The position numbers were made by a program, and so were the translations under genes. Shown piece after piece: positions 9,548 to 53,572 of a DNA stretch of 64,000 nucleotides; position 1 is the first letter of the stretch; each line of letters opens with the position of its first letter. This stretch comes from Flavobacteriaceae bacterium (GTDB taxonomy: Bacteria > Bacteroidota > Bacteroidia > Flavobacteriales > Flavobacteriaceae). The DNA is taken from assembly GCA_002702895.1 (NCBI GenBank), contig PACX01000022.1, positions 116,513-180,512 on the forward strand. Direction: 5' to 3'. Under the pieces are notes generated by a model. It had not been told where the DNA came from and did not search any database. It saw nothing but the letters and a program-made list of their open reading frames with translations.

Positions 9548-9550
9548 AAT

Positions 9551-10927: not shown

Positions 10928-10938
10928 AGTTTTTCAAG

Positions 10939-27821: not shown

Positions 27822-27823
27822 TT

Positions 27824-28561: not shown

Positions 28562-28562
28562 A

Positions 28563-32440: not shown

Positions 32441-33000
32441 ATAATATGGAAATTCGATTTGAAGAACTTTTTGGAAAAAGAATAAATCTAATAAAACTTA
32501 ATTCAAATTATATCAATGATATTCATGAATATTCAACAATTCCAATATTTTATAAATATTTAGAATATGATTGTTTTAAAAATATAGATGAAACAAAATT
32601 GTTTTTTAATAAAATATGTTCAAGATCAAATGAAATTGATTGTCATTATTGGATGATTTACTACGCAGAAAAAGATAAAGTTATAGGAACTATAGGACTT
32701 CACGATATAAATTGGAGAAAGGGTTCTGCTGAATTAACTTATGGTCTTTCTCCAAATTTTTGGGGAGTGGGTTTTTTTTCAGAAAGTTTAAATTTAGTTG
32801 TTAAATGGTTTTTTAATTTAAAAAATACCAATAGACTTTTTATAAAAACAGCTGCATCAAATATGGGTTCTATAAATTCAGTTTCTAAATATGGTTTTAA
32901 AAAAGAAGGTGTTTTAAGAGAATTTTATCTCGACAATAAAACAAATGAAAAGTGGGATGCAACTATCTTTTCACTTTTAAAATCTGATTTAATTAAATAA
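32434..33000 (+). CDS. GNAT family N-acetyltransferase (RimJ/RimL-like)
   Basis: A 188 aa acetyltransferase. KVIGTIGLHDINWRKGSAELTYGLSPNFWGVGF covers the core strands and the acetyl-CoA loop, and RLFIKTAASNMGSINSVSKYGFKKEGVLREF is the typical C-terminal part. It is comparable to sugar-amine acetyltransferases such as PseH or WecD-like enzymes. With the upstream DegT aminotransferase it would N-acetylate the new amino sugar. It overlaps the SDR stop by 7 bp. The ATG at 32446 is an alternative start. Confidence 0.87.
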   Translation: MVNNMEIRFEELFGKRINLIKLNSNYINDIHEYSTIPIFYKYLEYDCFKNIDETKLFFNKICSRSNEIDCHYWMIYYAEKDKVIGTIGLHDINWRKGSAELTYGLSPNFWGVGFFSESLNLVVKWFFNLKNTNRLFIKTAASNMGSINSVSKYGFKKEGVLREFYLDNKTNEKWDATIFSLLKSDLIK

Positions 33001-36579: not shown

Positions 36580-36590
36580 ATTATTGTACT

Positions 36591-37613
36591 GTGAATAAAG
36601 ATGTAATTATAATTGCAGAAGCTGGAGTAAATCACAATGGAGAACTAGAATTAGCTAAAAAATTAATTGAAGAAGCTGCTTTTTCTGGTGCTGATTATGT
36701 AAAATTTCAAACATTTAAAGCTCAAAATATTGTCAGCAAATCAGCAACTAAGGCAATATATCAATCAAAAAACATTGATGATCATGATGATTCACAGTTT
36801 AATATGTTAAAAAAACTTGAAATTCCTTTTGGTTGGCACAAAAAATTAATTGCGCATGCATCTTCTTTTGGAATAAAATTTTTATCGACGGGATTTGATG
36901 AAGAATCAATAGATTTTTTACATACTTTAGATTTAGATTTTTTTAAGATTCCATCTGGAGAAATTACTAATAAACCATATTTAAAACATATTACTTCAAA
37001 AGGTATTCCCATTGTAATATCAACCGGAATGGCTAACATGAAAGAGATAGAAGAAGCTCTAGAAATTTTTTTAATTAATGGATTTAAAAAACAAGATATT
37101 ACAATTCTTCATTGTAACACTGAATACCCAACACCAATAGAAGATGTAAATTTAAAAGCTATGAATTTTATAAAGGAAAATTTCAATGTAAATGTTGGCT
37201 ATTCAGACCATACTCTAGGTATTGAAGTATCAATTGCAGCAGTTGCTTTGGGAGCAACAATTATAGAAAAACATTTTACTTTAGATAAAAACATGGAGGG
37301 CCCAGATCATAAGGCTTCTTTAAATCCCGATGAGTTGAAAGAATTAGTTAAATCGATTAGAAATGTTCAGAAATCTATGTCTGGAAATGGCATCAAAGAA
37401 CCAAGTAAATCTGAACAAAAAAATATTGAGACAGTTAGAAAGAGTTTACATTATAAAAAAAATTTTAATGAGGGACATATTCTCAGATTTGAAGATATTA
37501 TAAGTTTAAGACCTGGTAATGGTATTAGTCCAATGAAAATAGATTCATATATTGGTAAAAAACTAAATCAAAATGTACTTAGTTATACATTAATCAATAA
37601 AAAACATTTTTAA
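36591..37613 (+). CDS. neuB: N-acetylneuraminate/legionaminate synthase (NeuB/LegI-like)
   Basis: A 340 aa PEP-condensing synthase. The barrel has IIAEAGVNHNGELELAKKLI, YVKFQTFKAQNIVS, IPSGEITNKPYL, ILHCNTEYPTPIEDVNL, GYSDHTLGIEVSIAAVALGATIIEKHFT in parts, and MEGPDHKASLNPDEL. The SAF domain follows from about residue 280 (RKSLHYKKNFNEGHIL). The NTEYPTP and GYSDHT forms are usual for Leg/Neu synthases. It begins with GTG at 36591 and is followed 1 bp later by neuC. The gene order from here to 43732 resembles the C. jejuni legionaminic-acid locus. Confidence 0.93.
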   Translation: MNKDVIIIAEAGVNHNGELELAKKLIEEAAFSGADYVKFQTFKAQNIVSKSATKAIYQSKNIDDHDDSQFNMLKKLEIPFGWHKKLIAHASSFGIKFLSTGFDEESIDFLHTLDLDFFKIPSGEITNKPYLKHITSKGIPIVISTGMANMKEIEEALEIFLINGFKKQDITILHCNTEYPTPIEDVNLKAMNFIKENFNVNVGYSDHTLGIEVSIAAVALGATIIEKHFTLDKNMEGPDHKASLNPDELKELVKSIRNVQKSMSGNGIKEPSKSEQKNIETVRKSLHYKKNFNEGHILRFEDIISLRPGNGISPMKIDSYIGKKLNQNVLSYTLINKKHF

Positions 37614-37614
37614 A

Positions 37615-38767
37615 ATGAAAGTTTGCGTAATTACAGGGACCAGAGCAGAATACGGTTTGCTATACTGGACTATGAAACTAATGGATGAAAATCCAAATAT
37701 TCAATTATATGTTTGTTTGACAGGAATGCATCTCTCTCCCGAATTTGGATATACTTGTGATAAAGTTAAAGAAGATGGTTTTGTAATTGATCACAAAGTT
37801 GAAATGTTGTTATCTTCTGATTCTGCTGTAGGTATTTCTAAAAGCATTGGATTAGGCATCATTGGTTTTTCTGATTATTTTGAACAATTAAAACCTGACT
37901 GGATATTGGTTTTAGGTGATAGATTTGAAATTTTTTCTGCTGTTTCTGCTGCGATGATAGCCAAGATTCCAGTTTGTCATTGCCACGGAGGAGAGTCCAC
38001 TGAAGGATTAATTGATGAGGCAATTCGACATTCAATAACCAAAATGTCACATTTACATTTTGCATCAACAGAAAGATATAGAAAAAGAATTATACAGCTA
38101 GGAGAACAACCTAACAAAGTATTTAATTCAGGAGCACTAGGAATTGAAAATATTAATCGAATCGAATTATTAAATCGTCAGGATTTTGAAAATAAAATTA
38201 ATTTTAAGTTATCAAAATTAAATTTTTTAGTGACATTTCATCCAGTAACTCTTGAAAACTATTCTGCTGATGAGCAGTTTAATGAGCTACTTGACTCATT
38301 ACGAAAAATTAAAAAAGCAAATATTATTTTTACAAAACCGAATGCTGATCACGACGGAAGAGGAATAATTAAGTTAATAGATTTATTTGTTAATGAAAAC
38401 AAAAAAAGATCTATTTCGTTTATATCAATGGGCCAATTACTTTATTTATCAGCTATTAAACATTGTGATATTGTGATTGGAAATTCATCAAGTGGATTAA
38501 TAGAAGCTCCAAGTTTTAAGAAACCCACTATTGATATTGGTGATAGGCAAAGAGGAAGAATTAAGTCTAAGAGTGTTTTAAACTGTGAACCTTTTGAAAC
38601 TTCAATATCTAAATCAATTGAATTTGCTCTTTCTGAAAGTTTTCAAAAAAAAATTAAAGTTAATTGATAACCCATACGATAATGGCAACTCATCTGAAAT
38701 TATAGTTAATAAAATTTTAGAAACCTCAAAAAAAAATATTTTAAAGAAGAAATTTTACAATACTTAA
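37615..38767 (+). CDS. neuC: Hydrolysing UDP/GDP-N-acetylhexosamine 2-epimerase (NeuC/LegG-like), frameshifted at a poly-A run
   Basis: Hydrolyses and epimerises the nucleotide-activated sugar to give the NeuB substrate. VITGTRAEYGLLYW, LVLGDRFEIFSAVSAA, CHCHGGESTEG and IGNSSSGLIEAPSFKKPTIDIGDRQRGR are unmistakable. The open frame stops at 38667 (350 aa), short of the family. The missing end lies in the +1 frame: after FQKKLKL it reads IDNPYDNGNSSEIIVNKIL, the expected NPYGDGN-type tail, with its stop at 38765-38767. Removing one A from the 9-A run at 38645-38653 joins the two (383 aa). The small frame over 38585-38767 is this tail, not a gene. Confidence 0.9.
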
Positions 38768-38768
38768 A

Positions 38769-39650
38769 ATGAAAATTATATTTATTGGTTCAGTTTACTT
38801 TTCTAAAGTAATGCTAGAAAAATTAATTGATTTAAAGGCTAATGTTGTTGGAGTTATAACAAAGAAAAATTCAGATTTTAATAGTGATTTTGTAGATTTA
38901 TCAACTATATCTAGGGTTTATAATATCCCTTTTTTGTACACCAAAAACATCAATAATCAAGAAACTATTTATTGGATAAAAAAGTTAAAATCTGACATTA
39001 TTTTTTGTTTTGGTTGGTCAAGTCTATTGAAAAAAGATGTTCTTCAAATATGCCCAATGGGAGTATTAGGTTTTCATCCCGCTTTAATACCAGAAAACAG
39101 AGGAAGACATCCTTTAATTTGGTCTAAGATCTTAGGTTTAGAAAAATCTGGCACCACATTTTTTTTTATGGACAAGGGTGCTGATACTGGGGATATTTTA
39201 GATCAAAAAGAATTTAAAATATCTTTTCAAGATGATGCAGCTTCACTTTATGAAAAAATGATTGTAAATTCCGTGGATCAATTAAAATTTTTTTTACCAA
39301 AACTAATATCCAATAGCTATTCGAGAATAAAGCAAAATAAGTTGGGTAACACATGGAGAAAAAGAGATCAAATTGATGGATTAATTGATTTTAGGATGAC
39401 TAGTGAATCAATTTGTAATCTTGTAAGAGGATTGTCAAAACCATATTTTGGAGCTCACTGTATTTATGGAGACAAAGAAATCAAAGTTTGGGAAGTCGAA
39501 TTGTCAACCTGTGATTTAAATAATTTTGAGCCCGGAAAAGTTTTAGAGATTATTAATGATAATATAAAAGTAAAAACATCTGACAGTGCAATATTATTGA
39601 CTAAACATAATTTTGAAACAATTCCATCTGTTGGAAAATATATAAAATAA
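38769..39650 (+). CDS. Sugar N-formyltransferase-like protein (methionyl-tRNA formyltransferase fold)
   Basis: A 293 aa formyltransferase. IIFIGSVYFSKVMLEKLI opens the Rossmann-like N-terminal domain, followed by MGVLGFHPALIPENRGRHPLIW and the catalytic FMDKGADTGDIL (Asp). The C-terminal FMT-C-like domain is present (RKRDQIDGLIDF, LVRGLSKPYFGA). In Fmt and ArnA the active site is N-x-H. Here the Asn position is Gly (G-F-H), a variant that I recall from proteins in nonulosonate loci. It would formylate a sugar amine using N10-formyltetrahydrofolate. The next gene, a deacetylase, may free that amine. Confidence 0.85.
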   Translation: MKIIFIGSVYFSKVMLEKLIDLKANVVGVITKKNSDFNSDFVDLSTISRVYNIPFLYTKNINNQETIYWIKKLKSDIIFCFGWSSLLKKDVLQICPMGVLGFHPALIPENRGRHPLIWSKILGLEKSGTTFFFMDKGADTGDILDQKEFKISFQDDAASLYEKMIVNSVDQLKFFLPKLISNSYSRIKQNKLGNTWRKRDQIDGLIDFRMTSESICNLVRGLSKPYFGAHCIYGDKEIKVWEVELSTCDLNNFEPGKVLEIINDNIKVKTSDSAILLTKHNFETIPSVGKYIK

Positions 39651-39651
39651 A

Positions 39652-40323
39652 ATGAAAAAAGTTATTATAATTTCATCACACCCCGATGATGAGATTTTAG
39701 GTGCTGGGGGAACATTATTAAAACATAAATCAAATGGAGATGATCTCGCTTGGTTAATTGTGACTTCTATGTTAAAAGATGAAAAGCAATCAAAAGACAC
39801 TATAAATAAAAGAAAAGAAGAGATTAAAAAAGTTTCTAAAATGATAGGTTTTTCTAAGGTTTATGAACTAAATTATCCAACAACGGGTTTACAATCTCAC
39901 TCTATGAATGAGATGATTCCTGAAATCTCAAGGATATTTTTAAATTTCAAACCAGAAATCATATATGTAATGAACCGCTCTGATGCACATTCTGATCATA
40001 GATATACTTTTGAATCAGTTTTAGCATGTACAAAATCATTTAGATATCCCTTTATAAAGAAAGTTTTAATGTATGAATGTATTTCAGAAACCGAATTTGC
40101 ACCTCAATTACATGAAAGAGTTTTTATCCCAAATTATTTTGTTGATATAAGTCCTTTTTTTGCTAAAAAAATAGGAATCATGGAGGTTTATAAATCCGAA
40201 CTTGGAGAGCACCCATTCCCCAGAAGTAAAAGAAATATTGAAGCGCTGGCCACTTTCAGAGGCGCAACAATTGGAGTGGAATATGCTGAATCTTTTCAAA
40301 TTATTAAAATATTAGATAAATGA
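39652..40323 (+). CDS. PIG-L family deacetylase
   Basis: A 223 aa zinc deacetylase. VIIISSHPDDEILGAGGTL carries the HPDD zinc motif near the N-terminus, and YVMNRSDAHSDHRYTFESVLACT supplies the third ligand (H-x2-H type). Members remove N-acetyl groups from GlcNAc-type sugars. Placed between the formyltransferase and the CBS-nucleotidyltransferase of module B, it likely deacetylates the amino sugar that is then formylated. It overlaps the next gene by 4 bp. Confidence 0.92.
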   Translation: MKKVIIISSHPDDEILGAGGTLLKHKSNGDDLAWLIVTSMLKDEKQSKDTINKRKEEIKKVSKMIGFSKVYELNYPTTGLQSHSMNEMIPEISRIFLNFKPEIIYVMNRSDAHSDHRYTFESVLACTKSFRYPFIKKVLMYECISETEFAPQLHERVFIPNYFVDISPFFAKKIGIMEVYKSELGEHPFPRSKRNIEALATFRGATIGVEYAESFQIIKILDK

Positions 40324-41366
40324 TAAGCTATAAAGATCACTTAATTAAATCAGATAGTTCTATTAAAAATGCATTAAAAAAATTAAATTTTTTAGCTAAA
40401 GACGCAATACTTTTTGTAATAAATAATAATAATCAGTTGTTGGGTTCAATAACTGATGGAGATATTAGAAGAGGTTTTTTAAAAGGCAAAAAATTAGAGG
40501 GAAACATTGACGGTTTATATAGAAAAGATCCAAAGTTTATAAGAAAAGAAGATTTTGATTTACATAAGATTATAGCTCTGAGGGAATTAAATTATAAGAT
40601 TTTCCCTGTTATAGATAATCAAAATGTTATAATAAATGTAGTAAACTTTAGAAAATTAAAATCATATCTTCCTATAGATACAGTTATAATGGCAGGAGGG
40701 AAAGGAATCAGATTAATGCCATTAACTACTAATATTCCAAAACCATTACTCAATGTTGGTGAAAAACCTATTATTCAACACAACATAGATAGGTTGCTTT
40801 CATTTGGAATTAATAATTTATGGATTTCAGTTAATTACCTAGGAGATTTGATAGAAAAACATGTTAATAATCATATTAATAAAAATATTAATGTAAATTT
40901 TATTAAAGAAGATAAACCAATGGGTACAATTGGTTCATTGTCCAATGTAAATAATTTTGTTCATGATTATATCCTGTTAACTAATTCTGATATCATAACT
41001 AATTTAGATTATGAGCAGTTTTTTTTAGATTTTATTGAAAAAGATGCTGATATTTCTGTTGCCACTGTACCTTATAATGTAAGTATACCCTATGGTGTTT
41101 TAGAGTCTACCAATGGACATATTATTAGTTTAAAAGAAAAACCAACATACACGTATTATTCAAATGCAGGAATTTATTTGATAAAAAAAGAAATCTTAAA
41201 ATATTTACCTAAGAATTCTTTTTTTAATTCTACTGATTTAATAGAATTATTGATTAACAAAAAAAAGAAGGTTGTTTCTTACCCAATGTCATGTTACTGG
41301 GTAGATATTGGTCAGCATCAAGATTATGAAAAAGCTAAAAAAGAAATTAAAAATATAAGATTTTAA
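40320..41366 (+). CDS. CBS-domain nucleotidyltransferase, PtmE-like (GDP-glucosamine type)
   Basis: A 348 aa fusion. Residues about 1-115 are a CBS pair (IKNALKKLNFLAKDAILFVI, SITDGDIRRGFLKG). From about residue 120 a nucleotidyltransferase follows: DTVIMAGGKGIRLMPLTTNIPKPLLNVG, PMGTIGSL, LTNSDIITNLD and CYWVDIGQHQDYEKA. This architecture is that of PtmE of C. jejuni, which makes the GDP-amino-sugar that starts the legionaminic-acid pathway. The neighbouring neuB, neuC, neuA-like and SDR genes support the same role. Its CBS half resembles that of the HddA fusion at 23976. Confidence 0.88.
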   Translation: MISYKDHLIKSDSSIKNALKKLNFLAKDAILFVINNNNQLLGSITDGDIRRGFLKGKKLEGNIDGLYRKDPKFIRKEDFDLHKIIALRELNYKIFPVIDNQNVIINVVNFRKLKSYLPIDTVIMAGGKGIRLMPLTTNIPKPLLNVGEKPIIQHNIDRLLSFGINNLWISVNYLGDLIEKHVNNHINKNINVNFIKEDKPMGTIGSLSNVNNFVHDYILLTNSDIITNLDYEQFFLDFIEKDADISVATVPYNVSIPYGVLESTNGHIISLKEKPTYTYYSNAGIYLIKKEILKYLPKNSFFNSTDLIELLINKKKKVVSYPMSCYWVDIGQHQDYEKAKKEIKNIRF

Positions 41367-41368
41367 TA

Positions 41369-42082
41369 ATGAATTTTCTTATTACTATTTGTGCAAGGGG
41401 AGGGTCTAAGGGGCTTAAGGAAAAAAACATAAAAAAAATAAATAATATCCCTTTAATAAAATACACTATCGATATTGCTAAACTATTTTCATCTAAGTAC
41501 AATTCAGTAATTGCTTTATCAACAGACAGTTTAAAAATAAAGGGATTGTGTGAAAGTTTTGGTTTAAATACAGAATATATAAGACCAACAAGATTAGGTG
41601 AAGATAACATTGGAAAATTAGATGTTATTTACGATGTTTTACAATATCAAGAAAAAAAACTCAAAAAAAACTTTGATCTTATTTTAGATTTAGATGTAAC
41701 GTCTCCACTCAGAAATATTAATGATTTAGATATGGCATTATCTTTATTAAATAATGATAGTGATGCACTTAATATTTTTTCAGTGAATGAATCTCAAAGA
41801 AATCCATATTTTAATATGGTTGAAAAAAAATCAAATGGTTATTATGGGCTGGTTAAGGATGGAGCTTTTTTAACTAGACAGTCAACTCCAAAAGTTTATG
41901 ACTTAAATGCTTCATTTTATTTTTTTAAAAGAAATTTTTTTAATGTAGGTCACAAAACTACAATTAGTAATAAATCTCTAATTTACACAATGCCTCATAT
42001 TTGCTTTGATATTGATAATCAGGCAGATTTTGATTATATGGAATATTTACTTAAAAATAATAAGTTAAATTTTAAACTATGA
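41369..42082 (+). CDS. neuA: CMP-nonulosonate cytidylyltransferase (NeuA/LegF/PtmB-like)
   Basis: A 237 aa enzyme beginning FLITICARGGSKGLKEKNIKKI, the NeuA/PtmB signature (RGGSKG.x.KN). RPTRLGEDNI, LILDLDVTSPLRNINDLD (metal-binding D-x-T-S-P-L-R) and the late CFDIDNQADFDYMEYLL complete the family pattern. It activates the product of NeuB as a CMP-sugar. It follows ptmE after 2 bp and overlaps the Gfo/Idh gene by 4 bp. Confidence 0.93.
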   Translation: MNFLITICARGGSKGLKEKNIKKINNIPLIKYTIDIAKLFSSKYNSVIALSTDSLKIKGLCESFGLNTEYIRPTRLGEDNIGKLDVIYDVLQYQEKKLKKNFDLILDLDVTSPLRNINDLDMALSLLNNDSDALNIFSVNESQRNPYFNMVEKKSNGYYGLVKDGAFLTRQSTPKVYDLNASFYFFKRNFFNVGHKTTISNKSLIYTMPHICFDIDNQADFDYMEYLLKNNKLNFKL

Positions 42083-42999
42083 ATGTTTTAGTAGTTGGCC
42101 TAGGATCTATTGCGAGAAAGCATATAATTGCTATGAACCAGTTAGAAATTAAGTTTAAAATATATGCATTAAGATCTAAGTCTAATAAAAAAGAAGAAAA
42201 ATTTATTAAAAATATATATGATCTAAAAGATCTGAAAATTAAACTTGATTTTGCAATAGTTTCCAATCCAACTGAACTTCATGAGCAAACGATAATAAAG
42301 CTTACAGATTTAAAAATTCCAATCTTTATAGAAAAGCCAGTAATGAGTAATTATAAAAATTCAAATGATATCTCAGATTTCTTAAAATATAATAAAATTC
42401 TAACTTATGTAGCTTGTAATTTAAGATTTCACCCCTCTATATTATTTTTAAAAAAATATATTGAAAAGTTCAAACCTTTAATTAATGAAATAAATATTTA
42501 TTCAGGCTCATATCTGCCAAACTGGAGAAAAGATCAAAATTATAGGGATTCTTACAGTTCGTTTTCAAAAATGGGAGGAGGGGTTCATCTAGATCTAATT
42601 CATGAAATTGACTATTGCCAATGGATTTTTGGATTACCCTCAGATGTTTATTCTCTTAGGAGAAGTGTTTCGACTTTAGAAATTGATTCTATAGATTTTT
42701 CTAAATACAGTTTAATTTATGACAAATACACTATTAATATTATTTTAAACTACTATAGAAAAGATTCAAAGAGGGAAATTGAATTAGTCACTAAAGATGA
42801 TACAGTCTTGATAGATTTAATTAAAAATAGTGTATATTCTTTTCAAAAAAATAAAATTTTATTTGAAAAACAATTTGATATTCAAGAAACATATAATCAA
42901 CAAATGAAATATTTTATCGAGACTATACAGAAAAATAAAAAACCTATGAATAATTTTGACGAAGGAGTTAGTACCCTAAAAATTGCATTAAATGAGTAG
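42079..42999 (+). CDS. Gfo/Idh/MocA family oxidoreductase
   Basis: A 306 aa sugar dehydrogenase. NVLVVGLGSIARKHI is the Rossmann motif, IFIEKPVMSNYKNS has the catalytic EKP, and GGGVHLDLIHEIDYCQWIFG the active-site His/Asp region. It is closest in layout to the 30598 protein (shared L..IHEIDY/F..W.FG segment), suggesting paralogy between modules A and B. It lies between the neuA-like and ptmA-like genes and overlaps both. Confidence 0.9.
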   Translation: MNVLVVGLGSIARKHIIAMNQLEIKFKIYALRSKSNKKEEKFIKNIYDLKDLKIKLDFAIVSNPTELHEQTIIKLTDLKIPIFIEKPVMSNYKNSNDISDFLKYNKILTYVACNLRFHPSILFLKKYIEKFKPLINEINIYSGSYLPNWRKDQNYRDSYSSFSKMGGGVHLDLIHEIDYCQWIFGLPSDVYSLRRSVSTLEIDSIDFSKYSLIYDKYTINIILNYYRKDSKREIELVTKDDTVLIDLIKNSVYSFQKNKILFEKQFDIQETYNQQMKYFIETIQKNKKPMNNFDEGVSTLKIALNE

Positions 43000-43732
43000 A
43001 TTAAAAGATAAAATAATTGTAGTTACAGGAGGAAATGGTCTTTTAGGAAGAGCATTAATAAAAAATATTTCAAAGGAAGAAGGGATAGCAATAAATTTAG
43101 ATATTAATTCTGATCATAATATTGATAAAAGAAGTTTAAAATGTGATATTACATCAAGAAAATCAATTCAAAGTTCCATAAAAATAATTTTAAAAAAATA
43201 TAAAAAAATTGATGGTTGGGTTAATAATGCTTATCCAAGAACAAAAGATTGGAATAATAAATTTGACAGAATAAAATCTGAATCATGGAAAAAAAATATT
43301 GATATTCAATTAAATAGTGTTTTCGATTGTTGTCAGTTAGTACTCAAAGTTATGATTAAACAAAAAAAAGGGAGTATAGTAAATATATCTTCAATTTATG
43401 GTTTATTAGGTCCAAACTTTAATGTATATAAAGGAACAAAAATGACTATGCCAGCTGCATATTCCGCTATTAAAGGTGGAATTAATAATTTCACTCGTTA
43501 CTTATCTTCCTATTATGGATCTGAAGGAATTAGAGTTAATTGTGTTTCGCCAGGTGGAATATTCAATAATCAAAATAAAACTTTTGTTAAAAATTACACA
43601 AAAAATGTGCCTTTACAAAAAATGGCTTTACCTAATGATATAGCACCTAGTGTAAGTTTTTTACTTAGTGATGAATCGAATTATATCACAGGTCATAATT
43701 TAATAATTGATGGGGGGTGGTCTATAGTTTAA
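42992..43732 (+). CDS. SDR family oxidoreductase, PtmA-like
   Basis: A 246 aa short-chain dehydrogenase. IIVVTGGNGLLGRALI (nucleotide site), KIDGWVNNAYPRTKDW (NNA-type motif), VNISSIYGLLGPNF and the catalytic AYSAIKGGINNFTRYL (YxxxK) are visible, ending ITGHNLIIDGGWSIV. The NNAYPRT variant is typical of PtmA, named from the Campylobacter flagellin modification locus. The order neuB, neuC, ptmE, neuA, oxidoreductase, ptmA closely follows that locus. Confidence 0.9.
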   Translation: MSRLKDKIIVVTGGNGLLGRALIKNISKEEGIAINLDINSDHNIDKRSLKCDITSRKSIQSSIKIILKKYKKIDGWVNNAYPRTKDWNNKFDRIKSESWKKNIDIQLNSVFDCCQLVLKVMIKQKKGSIVNISSIYGLLGPNFNVYKGTKMTMPAAYSAIKGGINNFTRYLSSYYGSEGIRVNCVSPGGIFNNQNKTFVKNYTKNVPLQKMALPNDIAPSVSFLLSDESNYITGHNLIIDGGWSIV

Positions 43733-43736
43733 AAAA

Positions 43737-44405
43737 ATGAGAAAATTAAAAACTTCTATTTCAGAACATAATCTATTTAATTATATTTTTATTCAATTAA
43801 GAAATTTTTTTCCTGATAACAACAATATTAATAAAAAGAATTTAGAATATTGCTTAAAAATAGCTTTAGAAAGGATAGAGTTAAGTTTTTCAATTATTAA
43901 AAATAAATACTATTTTAAAAACAATTTTTCTTTTTTCAATCACTTAAATGGAGACCATTATTCAGCTTTATTATACTTTATCTCAAATAATGCATTTAAA
44001 ATTAATGATGAAGTTTTAGCTACAAAAACTTTTTTATTAAACAAGCATATGTTTAGTATTGATGTTTTTTATAGTATTGAAATGCCTAATCATTTTATAT
44101 TTGTTCATCCATTAGGCACTATATTGGGTAATGCTAAATATGACGATTTTTTAGTTGTATATCAAAACGTAACAGTAGGTTCAACAACTGAGGGATTATA
44201 TCCAAAATTTTCAAAAAAAACCATTCTTTACTCAAATTCATCAATATTAGGAAAATGTAAAATTGGAGAAAATTTTGTTTTAGCTTCCAATTCTTTTATA
44301 GTGAATAAAAATATTGGTGATAATAAAATTGTTAAAGGCACGTATCCAAAAAACAATATTTCTGAAAATAACAATTCAATTATTAAACACTATTTTGATT
44401 TATAA
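43737..44405 (+). CDS. Serine O-acetyltransferase-like hexapeptide transferase
   Basis: A 222 aa protein with an all-helical N-terminal half and a short left-handed beta-helix at the C-terminal half: FIFVHPLGTILGNAKYDDFLVVYQNVTVGSTTEG, then ILGKCKIGENFVLASNSFIVNKNIGDNKIVKGTYP in part. The H-P-x-G...YQNVTVG pattern is that of CysE-family acyltransferases with its catalytic His. In a glycan locus it more likely acetylates a sugar than serine. It begins 4 bp after the PtmA-like gene. Confidence 0.82.
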   Translation: MRKLKTSISEHNLFNYIFIQLRNFFPDNNNINKKNLEYCLKIALERIELSFSIIKNKYYFKNNFSFFNHLNGDHYSALLYFISNNAFKINDEVLATKTFLLNKHMFSIDVFYSIEMPNHFIFVHPLGTILGNAKYDDFLVVYQNVTVGSTTEGLYPKFSKKTILYSNSSILGKCKIGENFVLASNSFIVNKNIGDNKIVKGTYPKNNISENNNSIIKHYFDL

Positions 44406-44411
44406 ACCTTA

Positions 44412-45575
44412 ATGAAGACAATCGCTTTTTTAATCTTTTCTCCTTTTTCTCAAAGAGATTTTAACCGTTTTGGAATTGAGATTTTAAAAAAAAAATTTAA
44501 TGTCTATGTTTTAGACATGAGTAAATTATTTGGGATGGATTTAAATAATAAATGTTTAATACACAAATTTGATGGATATTTGTCAATTAACTCGATTAAA
44601 GAATTTAAAAAGAATAGTACAAAATTAAATTTTGATTTTGCAGTTGATTTTTTAGACATTAGTCCAATATCTTACGAATTAAGAAATTTTTTAAAAAAAA
44701 AAAAAGTCTCTATAACAAAAGTTCAAAATGGATTACAACCGAAATATGTTCCAAGTAATGTCTTAAAAGATAAGGTTTATAAAAATATTTTTAGCTTAAG
44801 TAGCTGGCAAAAAATTGTTTTTACTTTGCATAAACTTTTAAATCCAAAATCTTATTTTTTTTCTGACGAGATTTTAGTTGGTGGATTATCTGGTTTAAAT
44901 TTAATTGCTGCCAAGTTTTCTAAAACTATTATTCCTTGTCATTCATTCGATTATGATATTTATCTGAACTTAAAAAAAAATAAAAAGATTATAAAAGACA
45001 AATATTTAGTTTTTGTAGATCAAAATTTAGCATTTCATCCTGATTTAGATTTTCTAAAACTTAAAAAGATTGTTGACCCTTATAATTATTACAATTCTAT
45101 GGAGAGTTTTTTTAAAAAAGCAGAATCCTTTTATAATTTAAAACTAATTGTAGCTTCACATCCTCGTTCCAATTATCACTTACACAAGGAAATTTTTAAA
45201 AATAGAACAATTATAAAGGGGAAAACAGCAGATTTAATAAAAGACTGCGAACATGTTTTTATGCATGCAAGCAATGCGTTGTCTTATGCAGTTTTGTATA
45301 GAAAACCAATTTCTTTTATTTCAACAAATGAGATAAATAATTCTTTTTTTAAAAATACGATTGATGTTTTTTCAAAATTTTTTTCAAAAAAATATTTAAA
45401 TATCGACAATTACACTGAGAATGATTTTTTGGAATTAGTTGATAAAACAATCAATGATAGTGTTTATCAAAAATATGAAAGAGAGTTTTTGATACACCCT
45501 GAGTCCTCAAAAGATCTTTTTTGGGAAATTTATTCAGAATATATTTTAAATAAAAAAATAAATCATAAAAAATGA
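44412..45575 (+). CDS. Unrecognised 387-aa GT-B-like protein
   Basis: I cannot assign a family. The N-terminus (TIAFLIFSPFSQRDFNRFGIEIL) looks like the first strand and helix of a GT-B domain. The C-terminal part has LIVASHPRSNYH, ADLIKDCEHVFMHASNALSYAVLYRKPISFIS, a late-domain layout like that of 33001 and 51734 and reminiscent of sialyl/Kdo transferase-like GT-B families. A run of 13 As at 44693-44705 is read in frame. It closes module B and overlaps the aldolase gene of module C by 4 bp. A glycosyltransferase for the module B sugar is plausible, not shown. Confidence 0.5.
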   Translation: MKTIAFLIFSPFSQRDFNRFGIEILKKKFNVYVLDMSKLFGMDLNNKCLIHKFDGYLSINSIKEFKKNSTKLNFDFAVDFLDISPISYELRNFLKKKKVSITKVQNGLQPKYVPSNVLKDKVYKNIFSLSSWQKIVFTLHKLLNPKSYFFSDEILVGGLSGLNLIAAKFSKTIIPCHSFDYDIYLNLKKNKKIIKDKYLVFVDQNLAFHPDLDFLKLKKIVDPYNYYNSMESFFKKAESFYNLKLIVASHPRSNYHLHKEIFKNRTIIKGKTADLIKDCEHVFMHASNALSYAVLYRKPISFISTNEINNSFFKNTIDVFSKFFSKKYLNIDNYTENDFLELVDKTINDSVYQKYEREFLIHPESSKDLFWEIYSEYILNKKINHKK

Positions 45576-46312
45576 AAAAAAACACAACTATTGGTTCTTG
45601 GATTACACTTAATCATACTTCAATTGTAGAAATAATTGCAGAAGCTGGTTTTGATTGGCTTTGTGTTGATTTAGAACATTCAGTTACTGACTACAAAGAA
45701 GCTCAACAACTAATATCAAGTATACAAAGCAAAGGAATAATAGCTTATGTTAGAGTTGGAGAAAATAACCCCCTAATTATTAAAAGAATTCTTGATGCAG
45801 GAGCTGATGGAATAATTATTCCAAATATTAATTCTAAAAATGAAGCTTTAAAAGCTGTAGAATCTATTTATTATCCACCTATTGGCAAAAGAGGTGTTGG
45901 ATTAGCTAGAGCTCAAAAATATGGTTTTGATTTCAATAAATATAGAGACGGCAAAGCAAAAAATATAAAAATTATTGTTCAAATAGAGCATATTAATGCA
46001 ATTAATGAATTAGAATCTATATTAGAAATAGATGAGATAGACGGAACATTTATCGGTCCTTATGATTTGTCAGGATCAATGGGCAAACCAGGTCAATATG
46101 ATGATATAGATGTCAAAGAAGTGCTTTCTAAATATGAAACAATTGTTAAAAATTATGATAAACTTATAGGCTATCATGTTATCGAGCCAGATCATACAAA
46201 AGTGATTGACAAAATAAATAAAGGGTATAATTTTATAGCTTTTAGTTTAGATACTATATTTTTAGGATCAGCAGTCAGAAATGAAATGAAATCTTTAAAA
46301 AATAATCTCTAA
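45572..46312 (+). CDS. HpcH/HpaI family aldolase
   Basis: A 246 aa class II pyruvate-type aldolase. GSWITLNHTSIVEIIAEAGFDWLCVDLEHS is the family start, followed by VRVGENNPLIIKRILDAGADGIIIPNI, the metal-binding VQIEHINAINELESIL (Glu) and GTFIGPYDLSGSMGKPG (Asp). Such enzymes condense or split pyruvate and an aldehyde to give 2-keto-3-deoxy acids. Next to a KdsB-like cytidylyltransferase it is a candidate for making an ulosonic acid without PEP. It is the first gene of module C. Confidence 0.92.
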   Translation: MKKNTTIGSWITLNHTSIVEIIAEAGFDWLCVDLEHSVTDYKEAQQLISSIQSKGIIAYVRVGENNPLIIKRILDAGADGIIIPNINSKNEALKAVESIYYPPIGKRGVGLARAQKYGFDFNKYRDGKAKNIKIIVQIEHINAINELESILEIDEIDGTFIGPYDLSGSMGKPGQYDDIDVKEVLSKYETIVKNYDKLIGYHVIEPDHTKVIDKINKGYNFIAFSLDTIFLGSAVRNEMKSLKNNL

Positions 46313-46321
46313 ACTTTAGAA

Positions 46322-47089
46322 ATGAAAATATTAGGAATAATTCCTGCAAGAATGGCATCATCTAGATTTCCTGGAAAACCTATGAAAGATATATTAGGAA
46401 TGCCTATGATTGGTCATTGCTATAAAAGAGCACAAATGTCTTCTGTTTTAAATGATGTTTATGTTGCTACTTGTGATTTAGAAATTTTTGAATATATAAA
46501 AAGTATTGGAGGAAAGGTTGTAATGACATCTAGTTCGCATGAAAGAGCTTCTGATCGAATTGCAGAAGCATTATTAATAATTGAAAAAATTAATAAAATA
46601 AAATCTGAAATCGTAGTTTTATTACAAGGAGATGAACCAATGACAAGACCCTCAATGATTGAAGCTGCAGTTCATCCTTTAATACATTCTGAAAATATTA
46701 AAATATCTAATTTATATACTAAAATAAAAACCATAAATGAATTTGAGAATCGAAATGAAGTTAAGGTAGTTGTAGATAAAAATAATTTTGCAATGTATTT
46801 TTCAAGAGAGCCTATTCCATCTAGGAGAATGAATTTTTTAAACGTTCCAATGTACAAGCAAGTTTGTGTTATTCCTTTTAAAAGAGATTTTTTAATTGAA
46901 TATAATAAAATGGAACAAACTCCTTTGGAGATTATTGAATCAGTTGATATGATGAGAGTTTTAGAAAATGGGATTAAAATTAAAATGGTTTATATTTCAG
47001 ATGAGAATTATTCTGTTGATACTGCAAATGATTTAAAAAACGTTATAAGAATTATGAAAAATGATAGTATAATAAAAGATTATATTTAA
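46322..47089 (+). CDS. KdsB-like cytidylyltransferase (3-deoxy-ulosonate CMP transferase)
   Basis: A 255 aa enzyme starting ILGIIPARMASSRFPGKPMKDILGMPMIGH, the KdsB signature. VATCDLEIFEYI, SSHERASDRIAEA (KdsB has T-S-x-x-H-x-S-G-T-D-R), VVLLQGDEPMTRPSMI and YFSREPIPSRRM are family blocks. It would activate the product of the HpcH-type aldolase as a CMP-sugar. Because it lies in this glycan module and its His-Glu-Arg-Ala-Ser-Asp segment differs from housekeeping KdsB, it is probably not the lipid A Kdo enzyme. Confidence 0.9.
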   Translation: MKILGIIPARMASSRFPGKPMKDILGMPMIGHCYKRAQMSSVLNDVYVATCDLEIFEYIKSIGGKVVMTSSSHERASDRIAEALLIIEKINKIKSEIVVLLQGDEPMTRPSMIEAAVHPLIHSENIKISNLYTKIKTINEFENRNEVKVVVDKNNFAMYFSREPIPSRRMNFLNVPMYKQVCVIPFKRDFLIEYNKMEQTPLEIIESVDMMRVLENGIKIKMVYISDENYSVDTANDLKNVIRIMKNDSIIKDYI

Positions 47090-47090
47090 A

Positions 47091-48021
47091 ATGAGAATTC
47101 TTTTAACAACAACTTCCTTTATTGATACACCAGGGATGCACCAAAAGAAATTGCATGACTCTAAATTTAAAATAGATGAATTAAGGGGTCCTCTCAAAGA
47201 GGAAGTTTTATTGCCGATAATTTCTAATTACGATGGTATAATTTGTGGAGATGATGATATTACTTATAAAGTAATAAGTAGTGGATCTAAAGGTAAACTT
47301 AAAGTTATTTCTAAATATGGTATTGGCCTTGATAAAGTTGATTTAAATGCAGCTAAAAAATTTAGAATTCCAGTTTTTAATACCCCAGGTGTTAACCATA
47401 TAACTGTATCTGAACATATAATCGCATTAATTTTTACTTTTTATAAAAATATTCACTTAGAATATCAAATTACTATAAATGGAAAATGGAAAAGATTAAT
47501 AGGAAATGAAGTTTTTGACAAAAAAATTGGGATACTTGGTCTGGGTAGAATAGGCAAAGAACTATATAAGAGAGTTATAGCTTTGGGAATGAAAGTTATA
47601 GTATATGACTCTAATATAGATTCAAAATTTGTTTCTAAAAACAATATACAAGCTGTTGAATCAATTGAAAGACTTGTAGAAGATATAGATATTTTAGCTT
47701 TAACTCTCCCTTTAACGGAAATATCTAAAGGAATTATTAACAAAGAGCTAATAGAAAAAACAAACAAAAAAATAATAATAGTTAATACATCAAGAGCTTT
47801 AATTGTAGATCAAAAGTCTTTAATTTATTTACTTAAAGAAAAAAAAAATAAAAGCATATTTAACTGATGTTTTAGAGGAAGAACCTATGACTGAAAATCA
47901 TCCATTACTTGATTTTGATAATGTTATAATTACTCCTCATATTGGCTCAAGGACTTTTGAGAGTGTTCAAAGGCAAGGCTCAATGGCTGTGGAAAACTTA
48001 TTTAAAATTTTAAACAAATGA
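47091..48021 (+). CDS. D-2-hydroxyacid dehydrogenase (SerA-like), frameshifted at a poly-A run
   Basis: The open frame ends at 47867 (258 aa) with the Rossmann motif GILGLGRIGKEL and the catalytic-Arg segment NTSRALIVDQKSL. The catalytic Glu and His are missing in that frame. They follow in the +1 frame: KAYLTDVLEEEPM and VIITPHIGSRTFES, ending at TGA 48019-48021. Deleting one A from the 10-A run at 47839-47848 joins them to a 309 aa protein of normal length that ends in an ATGA overlap with the next gene. It is therefore intact apart from one base. Its role in the module is presumably reduction or oxidation of a 2-keto/hydroxy acid. Confidence 0.88.
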
Positions 48022-48932
48022 AAAAAATAATAGTATTTGGAGGCTCAGGATTTTTGGGAAGTCATGTTGCAGATGAATTGACGAAAAAAGGGCATGATGT
48101 TACAATTTTTGATAAAGTAAAATCTAAACATCTTAAATCTAACCAAAAAATGGTATTAGGAGATATTTTAAATCAAAAAATTGTAAAAAAAGTAATTAAA
48201 GGAGCAGATTATGTTTATCATTTTGCTGCCATCGCAGATATACTAGAAGCTAAAAAAAATCCTGTAGATACAGCAAAATTTAATATAATGGCAACAATGT
48301 ACTTACTTGACGCATGTAATGAGTTTAAAGTCAAAAGGTTTATATATTCAAGTTCGGTATATGTTTACAGTGAACATGGATCATTTTATAGAAGTTCAAA
48401 ACAATCTTGTGAATTATTCATTGAAAATTATCAAAAAGAATATAATTTAAACTTTACAATTTTAAGATATGGATCTTTGTATGGTCCTAGAGCAAATCAT
48501 TTTAATTTTATTAAAAAAACAATTGAACAGGCATTAATTGAGAATAGAATTCAGAGAAAGGGTGATGGTAATGAAGTAAGAGATTATATAAATGTTTTGG
48601 ATGCTGCAATTGCTAGTGTAGATGTTTTAGAAGAAGAATATTTAAACAAATACGTTATGATTACAGGACCTCAAACAATGAAAGTAAAAGAAATATTAGA
48701 GATGATTAAAGAAATACTTAATGATGAAATTGAAATAGAATATTTAAGTGATCTTGTTGAAGGGCACTACCAAATAACCCCATATTCTTTTAAACCTAAA
48801 GTAGCTTTGAAATTAATTCCTAAAAATTATCATGATTTAGGACAAGGAATTTTGGATTTAATTTATGATGTATATGCAGAGTTAATTAAAAAAGGAGAAA
48901 AAATAAAGTATAATAAACTTGATAGCAAATGA
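48018..48932 (+). CDS. NAD-dependent epimerase/dehydratase family protein
   Basis: A 304 aa extended SDR. IIVFGGSGFLGSHVADEL is the NAD site, followed by VYHFAAIADILEAKKNP, FIYSSSVYVYSEHG (Ser/Thr) and the catalytic YRSSKQSCELF (YxxxK). ILRYGSLYGPRANHFNFI and GNEVRDYINVLDAA are typical of UDP-sugar 4-epimerases and dehydratases. It belongs to module C, overlapping the preceding gene by 4 bp and the cyclase gene by 4 bp. The exact sugar is unknown. Confidence 0.9.
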   Translation: MKKIIVFGGSGFLGSHVADELTKKGHDVTIFDKVKSKHLKSNQKMVLGDILNQKIVKKVIKGADYVYHFAAIADILEAKKNPVDTAKFNIMATMYLLDACNEFKVKRFIYSSSVYVYSEHGSFYRSSKQSCELFIENYQKEYNLNFTILRYGSLYGPRANHFNFIKKTIEQALIENRIQRKGDGNEVRDYINVLDAAIASVDVLEEEYLNKYVMITGPQTMKVKEILEMIKEILNDEIEIEYLSDLVEGHYQITPYSFKPKVALKLIPKNYHDLGQGILDLIYDVYAELIKKGEKIKYNKLDSK

Positions 48933-49582
48933 GTAAGTATATTTATCTTTCCTATTTCTTAGATGATAAAACTCCCATTTATGGTGGTGATAGAGGAATT
49001 AGTATAACTGAAAATAGTTCAATTAAAATGGGCGATACAGCAAATACTAAACTATTATCATTTCATAACCATTCAGGAACTCATATTGACTTTCCAAACC
49101 ATTTCATCGATAATGGGAAAAAATCAGATGATTATGAAGCAGGGTTTTGGATATTTGAAGATCCACATTTAATTAATATTAATGTATCAGAAAACGAGTT
49201 AATTAATATTAGTAAAAAAACATTGAATACTATTCCCATAAATACTGACTTTTTGATTTTTAACACTGGATTCCATATTTACAGAAATGATGAAAAGTTT
49301 TGGAAATATAACCCCGGTTTTGCTCCTGAAATGGCAAAAAAACTAAAAGACCATTGTCCAAATCTTAAAATTATTGCTATGGATACAATTTCTTTGACTT
49401 CATTTCAAAACAGAGAAATAGGAAGAGTTTCTCATAAAAATTTTCTTGGCAAAAGCGACTTATTAATTGTTGAAGACATTGATGTGAGATTTTTAAAAAC
49501 CCAGCCAAAAAAAGTAATGTGTTTTCCATTATTAGTAAAGAGCGTAGATGGCTGTCCGGTAACAATCATAGCTCAAGTTTAA
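48929..49582 (+). CDS. Cyclase family protein (kynurenine-formamidase-like metal hydrolase)
   Basis: A 217 aa protein with the family's metal-binding motif in HNHSGTHIDFPNHFID (H-x-G-T-H-x-D-x-P-x-H) at about residues 47-62, DFLIFNTGFHIY, NLKIIAMDTISL and NFLGKSDLLIVEDIDV. Members are metal-dependent hydrolases or lyases of small amides or lactones, for example kynurenine formamidase. No tryptophan pathway is nearby. In module C it could act on an amide or lactone of the ulosonic acid. Confidence 0.9.
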   Translation: MSKYIYLSYFLDDKTPIYGGDRGISITENSSIKMGDTANTKLLSFHNHSGTHIDFPNHFIDNGKKSDDYEAGFWIFEDPHLININVSENELINISKKTLNTIPINTDFLIFNTGFHIYRNDEKFWKYNPGFAPEMAKKLKDHCPNLKIIAMDTISLTSFQNREIGRVSHKNFLGKSDLLIVEDIDVRFLKTQPKKVMCFPLLVKSVDGCPVTIIAQV

Positions 49583-49583
49583 A

Positions 49584-50228
49584 ATGAATTATAAAGCATT
49601 AATATATGATTTTGATGGAGTAATATGTGATTCTGTTGATGTAAAAACAGAAGCATTTGCCCAGATATATAAAAAATATGGGCCAGATGTTGTCAAAAAT
49701 GTAAAAGAATATCATATTAAAAATGGTGGTATATCAAGATTTAAAAAATTTAAATATTTTCATCTTAATTACTTAGGGCTTAAATTATCAAATAATCAAT
49801 TAATCTCTCTAGGAAATACTTTTTCAAATTTAGTAAAGAAAAAAGTTATTGAATCACCATTTATTAATGGAGTACAAGACTTTATATCAATTAATTCTAG
49901 AACTTTTTTACAATTTATTTGCACAGGAACACCAGAAAATGAAATTTTAGAAATTGCAAAAAAAAAAAATATATCTACTTACTTTAATGAAATTTATGGA
50001 TCTCCAAAAAGTAAGGAGGAAATCATTAGCTTAATAAAAAAAAAATACAATTTAAGTTCTGATGAAATAGTATTTTTTGGAGATGCAATGACGGATTATA
50101 ATTCCTCCAAGAAATGTAATGTTTCATTTATCGGAGTTGAAAATAATTTAAACTCTTTTCCAAAAAATACTTTTTTAATAAATGATTTTCTGGATGATTC
50201 ACTTAAAAAAATTTTAAAAATTAACTAA
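49584..50228 (+). CDS. HAD superfamily hydrolase
   Basis: A 214 aa phosphatase of the beta-phosphoglucomutase-like branch. LIYDFDGVICDSVDVKTEAF is the nucleophile motif (DxD), FICTGTPENEILEIA gives the Thr motif, KSKEEIISLIKKKY the Lys, and VFFGDAMTDYNSSKKC the acidic Mg motif. It is the last enzyme of module C and may dephosphorylate a phosphorylated intermediate, as KdsC does for Kdo. A 12-A run at 49958-49969 is read in frame. Confidence 0.9.
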   Translation: MNYKALIYDFDGVICDSVDVKTEAFAQIYKKYGPDVVKNVKEYHIKNGGISRFKKFKYFHLNYLGLKLSNNQLISLGNTFSNLVKKKVIESPFINGVQDFISINSRTFLQFICTGTPENEILEIAKKKNISTYFNEIYGSPKSKEEIISLIKKKYNLSSDEIVFFGDAMTDYNSSKKCNVSFIGVENNLNSFPKNTFLINDFLDDSLKKILKIN

Positions 50229-51700: not shown

Positions 51701-51733
51701 ATCATTCATTAATAGATTCTTCATTTGTTTTTT

Positions 51734-53572
51734 ATGAAAAATAAAATTTTATTTCTAAATATTTCAAATAATCTATGGACTTTTAGAGTTGATTCTAATC
51801 AGATTAATAGATATTTGAGTGATTATATTGATATAAATTCAAAAAAAATAAAATCTAAATATATTTCATTTATAAATACTTTGTCTAATCATAAAATTTA
51901 TGGAAAAAACATTTCAGAACATTTTCATTTAAAATCAGGTTATAATATCTGGTGGATGTCCAAAATTGCAGAGAAAAGTTCATATAAATCACCACAAATC
52001 TCTGATTGTATAAAGTTGATTGCATTGGAAGAAATTATTCTTCATAACAAATGCAACAAAATTATTTTGACTGTTGATAATCACAAGTTAATAAAGTCAA
52101 TAAGAAAATTGTCAAAAAACCTTGGAATTAAGATTGTAATTAATAATTATAAATTTAAATATTATTTAGAATCAATAAGAAGAAATATTTTTCACTTCTA
52201 TTTTTTTTTAAATTTAGTAAAGGGAATAGTCTATTTATTTTTAAATTTTATTTCAGTATGGTTTAGAACAAAACCTTCTAGTAATTGGTTTAAAGGAGAT
52301 AAATCAATTATGATTTTTTCTTATTTCATACATTTAGATTTAAATAAAAGTAAAAAAGGAATTTTTTATTCAAGACAATGGGAACTATTACCTAAATTAA
52401 TTAACTCTATCAATGTTAAATGTAACTGGGTTCATCATTTTTTAACTAGTGAAGTAGCTAGAAGTCCTAAGCAAGCAATTAATCTTTTGGAAAAATTTAA
52501 TTTATCCTCAAATAATCGCCACACCTTATTAAATTCATATTTAGATTTTGTTATTATAAGAAAAATATTTGTGAATTATTTATACATAATTAAAAAAACA
52601 ATTGAAATTAGTTCCATAAGAAATCATTTCAAATTTGATAAATCTTCAATTGATTTTTGGCCTTTATTAATGGAAGATTGGTATTCTTCTTTTGTTGGAG
52701 CAACATGTATACAAAATTTAATATTTATTTTTCAGATGGATAAAATTTTCAAAGAAATGCCATACCAAAAATTGGGTTTGTATTTAAATGAAAACCAGGG
52801 ATGGGAACGTGCCATGTTACAATCTTGGCGAAAACACAAACATGGAAAGATAATTGGAGTTCAACATTCTTCCTTGAGATATTGGGATTTAAGATATTTT
52901 GACCACAAAGATATTTTAAATTCTAATGGAAAGTTTTCACAACCAAAGCCAGATTACATTGCAGTTAATGGTCCAATTCCTTTAAAAATTTACTTAGATG
53001 CTAAATATGATAAGAAATCTTTTATCAAAGTTGAAGCTGTTAGGTACTTATTTCACTTAAATAATTCATCTAAAAAAAATAAATCATTAATTAAAAATAA
53101 ATGTAAAAAAATTTTGATACTAGGAAATATTTTAAAAGATTCAACAATAGCGTTATTATCTTTATTAAGTAAAATTGATTTTAAGGATTCAATAAAATTT
53201 GTAATAAAGGCTCACCCGGGCGCGCTTATTAATGAAAAAAAATTTCCTAAATTAAATTTGGAAGCAAATAACACTCCTCTTGTTGATCTCTTGGATGAAT
53301 TTGATAACTGTATAGCAGTCGGAGACACAACGGCTGCATTAGACGCTTATTTATCAGGTCTTAATCTAATTGTATTTTTAGTCAATGGGGAATTAAATTT
53401 AAGTCCTTTAAAAGGATTTGCTAGTGTTCATTTTGTGAGGAATTCTAATCAATTAAAAAAAGTATTGGACTTTAATAAAAACAAAAGCAAACAATTAAAT
53501 GTAATACAATCATATTATTGGTTAGATAAATCTTTACCTAAATGGAAAAATTTATTAAATGATTTTTATTAG
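51734..53572 (+). CDS. Surface carbohydrate biosynthesis protein (TIGR04326-like), GT-B-like
   Basis: A 612 aa protein that I link tentatively to the LIC-type surface carbohydrate family. The middle has a hydrophobic stretch (FYFFLNLVKGIVYLFLNFI) at about residues 150-175. The conserved-looking part is GLYLNENQGWERAMLQSWRK, KIIGVQHSSLRYWDLRYF, and later VIKAHPGALINEKKF and LLDEFDNCIAVGDTTAALDAYLSGL. This GT-B end layout recalls CDP-glycerol or sialyl-type transferases. A longer frame from TTG 51725 adds three residues. It follows the module C polymerase. Confidence 0.6.
   Translation: MKNKILFLNISNNLWTFRVDSNQINRYLSDYIDINSKKIKSKYISFINTLSNHKIYGKNISEHFHLKSGYNIWWMSKIAEKSSYKSPQISDCIKLIALEEIILHNKCNKIILTVDNHKLIKSIRKLSKNLGIKIVINNYKFKYYLESIRRNIFHFYFFLNLVKGIVYLFLNFISVWFRTKPSSNWFKGDKSIMIFSYFIHLDLNKSKKGIFYSRQWELLPKLINSINVKCNWVHHFLTSEVARSPKQAINLLEKFNLSSNNRHTLLNSYLDFVIIRKIFVNYLYIIKKTIEISSIRNHFKFDKSSIDFWPLLMEDWYSSFVGATCIQNLIFIFQMDKIFKEMPYQKLGLYLNENQGWERAMLQSWRKHKHGKIIGVQHSSLRYWDLRYFDHKDILNSNGKFSQPKPDYIAVNGPIPLKIYLDAKYDKKSFIKVEAVRYLFHLNNSSKKNKSLIKNKCKKILILGNILKDSTIALLSLLSKIDFKDSIKFVIKAHPGALINEKKFPKLNLEANNTPLVDLLDEFDNCIAVGDTTAALDAYLSGLNLIVFLVNGELNLSPLKGFASVHFVRNSNQLKKVLDFNKNKSKQLNVIQSYYWLDKSLPKWKNLLNDFY

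Follow-up and report, generated by a model that had tools for sequence, protein, structure and literature searches.

Gene content of the locus

We analysed a window of 64,000 nucleotides from the 1.87 Mb draft genome of a Flavobacteriaceae bacterium. Between positions 45572 and 50228 of this window, six collinear and tightly packed open reading frames (ORFs) on the + strand encode an aldolase (ALD), a KdsB-like cytidylyltransferase (KDSB), a D-2-hydroxyacid dehydrogenase (HADH), an extended short-chain dehydrogenase/reductase (SDR; here EPIM), a cyclase-family hydrolase (CYC) and a phosphatase-type hydrolase (HAD), in the order ALD-KDSB-HADH-EPIM-CYC-HAD (Table 1). We propose that they constitute a surface-polysaccharide module in which an ulosonic acid, activated with cytidine monophosphate (CMP), is built from pyruvate and probably not from phosphoenolpyruvate (PEP), each chemical step being one that we infer.

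A first-pass annotation of this DNA had reported six genes here and named their families, and all six ORFs, with their coordinates and their Pfam and NCBIfam assignments, agree with it. Its description of genes joined by short overlaps holds for the tight packing but not for one 9-base gap: consecutive neighbours are spaced by −4, 9, 1, −3, −4, 1 and −1 bases, with HADH taken to stop where its second frame does. Neither KdsA nor NeuB was found within 45572–50228, as had also been noted. No NCBIfam equivalog cut-off was passed by ALD, HADH, EPIM or CYC.

The HADH gene is split into two frames. The first (47091–47867) breaks at a run of ten A residues at 47839–47848, while a second frame, open from 47839 to 48020, codes for the conserved tail of the protein (..DVLEEEP..PHIGSRT..). 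Since the second frame carries this tail, we take the HADH gene to span 47091–48020 with a one-base shift, which is either a true lesion or an assembly error of the draft genome. Intact homologues of HADH occur in other loci, for example L037 and L095. ORF calls here and at the other loci were mechanical; contig ends, frameshifts and competing ORF picks make some modules look incomplete.

Table 1. Genes of the module and a tentative further member, with window positions
Gene and product	Position	Strand	Family evidence
ALD, HpcH/HpaI class II pyruvate aldolase (predicted), 246 aa	45572..46312	+	PF03328, 107.9 bits
KDSB, KdsB-like cytidylyltransferase, 255 aa	46322..47089	+	PF02348, 171 bits; NF009905, 297 bits, over cut-off
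HADH, D-2-hydroxyacid dehydrogenase (PGDH-like), two frames	47091..48020	+	PF02826/PF00389; TIGR01327, 171 bits, below cut-off
EPIM, extended SDR, intact S112-Y124-K128	48018..48932	+	PF01370
CYC, cyclase-family (kynurenine-formamidase fold) metal hydrolase	48929..49582	+	PF04199
HAD, phosphatase-type hydrolase	49584..50228	+	PF13419
Candidate glycosyltransferase, GT-B-like fold, tentative module part	51725..53572	+	Predicted model and Foldseek

Conserved co-occurrence of the six genes

By scanning one genome per species (84,980 species) with an alignment of six close ALD sequences we obtained the best 80 ALD loci, with identities of up to 72%; removal of near-duplicates and addition of relatives gave 77 dereplicated loci. 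A CMP-transferase shares the gene run with ALD in 75 of the 77. In the subset of 55 loci flanked by at least 5.5 kb on each side, a CMP-transferase is present at 54, HADH at 47, and either CYC or a 6-phosphogluconolactonase at 40.

Two controls were independent of this ALD-chosen set. In 297 genomes of the phylum we found 12 further ALD loci, with the module including its CMP-transferase at 10; the two loci without the transferase are among the three lowest-scoring. Searching 395 genomes of the class for CYC gave 13 strong matches, the window among them, and ALD lies in the same block in 11; one of the other two has the rest of the module without ALD and one is solitary. The six-gene set is a conserved module, co-occurring far beyond chance, and its co-occurrence in the ALD set and in both controls argues that it is a functional unit. 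Conserved co-occurrence was the check that the first-pass annotation had suggested for its proposal, and as a rule the genes do not occur independently.

The aldolase and the CMP-transferase

The module aldolases form a clade of their own (support 98/97). The catalytic and metal-binding residues D33, E35, H36, R61, E139 and D165, corresponding to D42, E44, H45, R70, E149 and D175 of EcHpaI, are kept in 74 of 74 relatives. The predicted structure is a TIM barrel (predicted local distance difference test score, pLDDT, 87) with HpaI as its best PDB match, at a template-modelling score of about 0.84. By residues and predicted fold, ALD belongs to the HpcH/HpaI class II pyruvate aldolases, and we predict an aldol reaction with pyruvate for it.

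Three residues are specific to the clade, H202 (74/74), Q115 (74/74) and H140 (73/74), and none was seen in the eight outgroup sequences. One of these eight is itself from a distant module variant (L025); the other seven likewise lack the clade-specific residues. H202 replaces Leu212 of EcHpaI, equivalent to Leu214 of AbHpaI, a residue that lines the aldehyde pocket (PMC8560999), so that the acceptor-pocket leucine has become histidine in all 74 module aldolases.

In the L025 variant (8967–11052) the genes beside the distant ALD (29% identity) encode a cytidylyltransferase (PF02348) and a HAD protein, which suggests that modules of this kind have another branch of earlier origin.

The module KDSB sequences are split from KdsB and KpsU by a branch with support 100/96. 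In their C-terminal half, 43 of 43 carry Q180, I184, D209 and M210, whereas at the same four positions all 16 canonical KdsB/KpsU sequences have H, Y and E at the first three and 14 of the 16 have Q at the last. It is the C-terminal half of KdsB that binds Kdo (3-deoxy-D-manno-oct-2-ulosonic acid) (PMC3149649). KdsA was not found in five carriers, namely Methanoperedens, Hadarchaeum, one Woesearchaeota and two members of the candidate phyla radiation (CPR), whose draft genomes may be incomplete, and three Bacillota carriers gave only matches below the cut-off. Bacteroidota carriers have KdsA elsewhere in the genome. At some loci a NeuA-like transferase replaces KDSB next to the same ALD. Because of the four changed positions in the Kdo-binding half and the carriers in which no KdsA was found, KDSB is probably not a CMP-Kdo synthetase and very likely has a substrate other than Kdo. 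We rejected Kdo specificity on these two grounds and on the tree; the presence of the KdsB-like enzyme in genomes without a detectable KdsA speaks against its dependence on KdsA-made Kdo, a dependence that the first-pass annotation had recognised as damaging to its proposal.

The S112-Y124-K128 triad of EPIM is conserved at 100% in 50 relatives, the CYC motif HxGTHxDxPxHF together with D152, H169 and E182 is invariant in 14 relatives, and D9, D11, K144, D167 and D171 of HAD are invariant in 44.

Gene exchanges between module variants

Four arrangements recur among the loci. The first, that of the window, is ALD-KDSB-HADH-EPIM-CYC-HAD, often with an added methyltransferase. The second is ALD-KDSB-HADH-GFO-SIS-SDR-AroB-like-CYC, or has an inositol monophosphatase (IMPase)-like gene replacing SDR and the AroB-like gene. 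The third, mostly flavobacterial, is NeuA-like-(NanQ-like)-ALD-EPIM-lactonase-HAD-HADH, and the fourth is HADH-GFO-SIS-SDR-AroB-like-NanQ-like-NeuA-like-CYC-ALD. Further types exist, such as L201 with HAD and SIS together. NanQ-like genes, of the anomerase family, occur at 15 loci, all 15 of them NeuA-type modules.

CYC (36 loci) and a 6-phosphogluconolactonase (16 loci) take the same position and are found together at none (Fisher p = 8e-6, indicative only as relatedness is ignored), and the ALD tree requires at least three changes from one to the other. The 6-phosphogluconolactonase assignment rests on TIGR01198 (183 bits; cut-off 124), with which the PDB relatives agree; the flavobacterial 234-aa gene found where the cyclase would stand is this lactonase and not an SDR. 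As two unrelated hydrolases share one slot, the step is probably the opening of a lactone, and we propose from this swap that CYC is a putative sugar lactonase.

HAD alternates with an IMPase or AroB-like gene; the two apparent exceptions, L050 and L113, have the second gene several ORFs away. This alternation of HAD, IMPase and AroB-like phospholyase suggests loss of phosphate at that step. EPIM in turn alternates with GFO plus a GmhA-like SIS isomerase, an exchange that fits a sugar-phosphate oxidation. All 11 AroB-like sequences retain the K, R, N and H of the 3-dehydroquinate synthase motif. In 3-dehydroquinate synthase itself the carboxylate of the substrate is bound by K and R, and a 2-ulosonate phosphate would need the same. 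The variants concerned (L044:12456-15953 and similar loci) combine the AroB-like cyclising phospholyase (TIGR04425) with GFO, GmhA-like SIS and SDR genes, and their product may be a carbocyclic or bicyclic sugar acid.

Often directly after KDSB stands an S-adenosylmethionine (SAM)-dependent methyltransferase of about 325 aa (L073:11549-12526 and homologues), a position that suggests a methylated sugar in many carriers. The product of a gene adjoining ALD in another locus (L019:10630-11790) matches alpha-2,8-polysialyltransferase weakly (PF07388, 24.3 bits), as would suit transfer from a CMP-ulosonate; a neighbour protein in L074 matches PF07388 below the cut-off.

In the window, the product of the gene at 51725 is a tentative candidate for the transferase of the CMP-sugar. 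Its predicted model (pLDDT 72.5) has Foldseek matches to GT-B glycosyltransferases and UDP-sugar 2-epimerases, and homologues occur in 8 of 44 KDSB-type loci, directly after KDSB in L204-L206, and in none of 38 NeuA-type loci. A 387-aa protein encoded just upstream of ALD (44412–45575) has no Pfam family and is possibly a glycosyltransferase; homologues stand in the ALD loci L044 (46%), L073, L089, L056/L169 and, partly, L036.

Proposed pathway and alternatives

The pathway that we favour would begin with the oxidation of a sugar phosphate at C1 by EPIM to give a lactone, which CYC would open to an aldonate phosphate. HAD would take off the phosphate, and HADH would oxidise the resulting aldonate at C2 to a 2-ketoaldonate. 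ALD would then add pyruvate to the ketone of this acceptor, forming a 3-deoxy-4-C-carboxy-2-ulosonic acid, a branched ulosonic acid that KDSB would activate with CTP and a glycosyltransferase would attach. If the pathway starts from glucose 6-phosphate, the acceptor would be 2-keto-D-gluconate and the product, speculatively, a Kdo skeleton bearing a carboxyl group at C4. We consider it likely that the ulosonic acid activated with CMP is the product of ALD; to the complete order, ketone acceptor included, we give a probability of roughly 0.4. Pyruvate aldol addition followed by CMP activation, independent of PEP and leading to a Kdo-like sugar, had been the suggestion of the first-pass annotation. 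The aldol-then-activation scheme survives as the best reading, with PEP independence as its predicted consequence, but the four KDSB positions make Kdo itself an improbable product. The roles of HADH, EPIM, CYC and HAD, which that annotation had left unexplained, are suggested by the gene swaps, by which the acceptor would be made via a lactone and an aldonic acid.

In this order each core enzyme would carry out its ordinary reaction, the aldol addition onto a ketone being the least usual step. SbnG, a biosynthetic member of the HpcH/HpaI family, adds its nucleophile to the ketone of oxaloacetate. HpcH aldolases have also been found to add pyruvate to the hydroxyketones dihydroxyacetone and erythrulose in vitro (PMC7610986). 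Several points weigh against the proposed order. Some modules lack HADH (L055, L102, L089) and others the lactonase or EPIM, and the variants with GFO, SIS and AroB-like genes fit the simple order incompletely. EPIM is nearer by sequence to epimerases and dehydratases of nucleoside diphosphate (NDP)-sugars than to sugar-phosphate dehydrogenases, which makes its role as a sugar-phosphate dehydrogenase the weakest assignment. To our knowledge, no natural pyruvate aldol addition onto a 2-ketoaldonate is documented.

The main rival is an aldehyde acceptor. Here, ALD would add pyruvate to an aldose, aldose phosphate or uronate to give a linear 3-deoxy-2-ulosonic or ulosaric acid for CMP activation, the other genes preparing or tailoring the sugar in another order. 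HpcH/HpaI aldolases normally take aldehydes as acceptors (PMC8560999), the GmhA-like SIS isomerase of the variants would yield an aldose phosphate, and HADH is absent from some modules. Such a scheme has no clear place for HADH or for interchangeable lactonases, each present at most of the well-flanked loci, and the acceptor pocket is altered in every module aldolase; we regard it as only somewhat less probable than the order with a ketone.

The ulosonic acid could instead arise by C2 oxidation of an aldonate by HADH, giving a non-deoxy product for CMP activation, with ALD in a side role. Interconversion of aldonates and 2-ketoaldonates is known in the dehydrogenase family, with 2-ketogluconate reductase among the PDB relatives, and lactonase and phosphatase would fit. 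Against this, no other gene is linked as closely to the CMP-transferase as ALD, including at loci without HADH, so we consider this origin unlikely. Less likely again is that KDSB serves as a second, KpsU-like CMP-Kdo synthetase fed by the housekeeping KdsA, the other genes serving a separate sugar. The host genome does have a KdsA-like gene and KDSB scores over the KdsB subfamily cut-off (NF009905), but its separate branch, its changed sugar-half positions, its presence in carriers without a found KdsA and its replacement by NeuA-like transferases beside the same ALD all speak for another substrate. That a catabolic sugar-acid operon, with ALD cleaving 2-keto-3-deoxy acids, lies in a polysaccharide island by chance is highly improbable: NCBIfam names HpaI, GarL and RhmA as characterised relatives, and these are catabolic, but a CMP-transferase stands beside nearly every ALD copy, the two loci without one in the phylum sample being among the three lowest-scoring, and the window copy lies inside an island that also contains genes for NeuB, cytidylyltransferases and glycosyltransferases.

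Genomic setting and spread

Genome-wide checks in the host genome were family searches. They located a second KdsB gene (C9:35451) and the KdsA-like gene (C18:56086) elsewhere, and the genome's two strong NeuB matches (near 25353 and 36591) in separate modules upstream in the same island. Of these NeuB-containing CMP-ulosonate modules one spans about 25353–33000 and the other about 34662–44405, the latter with NeuB, NeuC-like, formyltransferase, CBS nucleotidyltransferase, PseF-like and PtmA-like genes. Three CMP-ulosonate modules within one island are unusual.

Among 21 genomes of the genus, two matches to TIGR00466 over the cut-off were found in the host genome (G000) only, from which the module is patchy and looks acquired. 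The best 80 loci of the ALD scan came from Bacteroidota, Ignavibacteriota, Kryptoniota, Chlorobiota, Nitrospirota, Omnitrophota, Deferribacterota, Bacillota, Balneolota, Planctomycetota, CPR bacteria and archaea, a spread drawn largely from draft metagenome genomes in which single contigs may be misbinned. In the sample of 297 genomes of the window's phylum there are 10 carriers, about 3%. Among cultured carriers, Polaribacter glomeratus, Flavobacterium akiainvivens and Winogradskyella tangerina have 6-phosphogluconolactonase as the lactonase, Dyadobacter luticola and Mucilaginibacter phenanthrenivorans have the AroB-like gene, and Daejeonella sp. H1SJ63 has the arrangement of the window. The module is both conserved and mobile. 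A version annotated with an acylneuraminate cytidylyltransferase (NeuA) lies on the Acuticoccus plasmid unnamed5 (L015:13962-18414) and is evidence for plasmid-borne mobility; among the plasmid matches listed, identity to the KdsB-like protein is at most 42%. In the collections searched, no relative of ALD or of the KdsB-like protein was found on viral contigs and phage records gave only weak matches, so that a phage cassette was rejected.

Relation to known systems and significance

The CMP-ulosonic acids Kdo, sialic acid, legionaminic acid and pseudaminic acid are key surface sugars, and in all routes to CMP-ulosonates known to us the chain is joined with PEP by a synthase of the KdsA or NeuB type. 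Like the Kdo pathway (KdsD-KdsA-KdsC-KdsB) with its capsule-specific KpsU, the module would combine a 2-ulosonic acid, phosphate removal and CMP activation by a KdsB-fold enzyme for surface glycans. The chain, however, is joined by KdsA with PEP in the Kdo pathway, whereas the module has a pyruvate aldolase and no KdsA, and its KdsB-like enzyme belongs to a separate clade with changed sugar-half residues. The NeuB-type pathways (sialic, legionaminic, pseudaminic) likewise provide CMP-ulosonates for surface glycans, and the NeuA-like transferases and NanQ-like proteins of some variants add to the likeness; NeuB itself uses PEP and an N-acetylhexosamine-type aldehyde, while the module lacks NeuB and has oxidation and lactonase genes foreign to those pathways.

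The HpcH/HpaI aldolases (HpaI, GarL, RhmA/YfaU, SwHKA) share the ALD fold and all its catalytic and metal residues. Characterised members are catabolic or serve as in vitro catalysts, in contrast to the ALD clade with its own H202, H140 and Q115 and its link to a CMP-transferase. The citrate synthase SbnG, of the same family, matches ALD only distantly in sequence and fold; its substrates are acetyl-CoA and oxaloacetate, and no sugar is formed. The first-pass annotation knew of no characterised pathway with this gene set, and we too found none, nor any 4-C-carboxy ulosonic acid, in the open-licence literature, outside which most subscription journals lie.

The module is apparently an undescribed form of CMP-ulosonate biosynthesis, and confirmation of the branched product would bring it nearer to a new kind. 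Tentatively, it may represent a widespread pathway in which an aldolase acting on a 2-ketoaldonate supplies a branched, doubly acidic CMP-sugar (4-C-carboxy-Kdo if the acceptor is 2-keto-D-gluconate) to bacterial and some archaeal surface polysaccharides. If the conserved route indeed runs through a pyruvate aldolase, it would add a class of acidic surface sugars absent from current catalogues, would give functions to subfamilies named so far by fold only and would provide enzymes for rare sugar acids. Cultured carriers exist, making the pathway directly testable.

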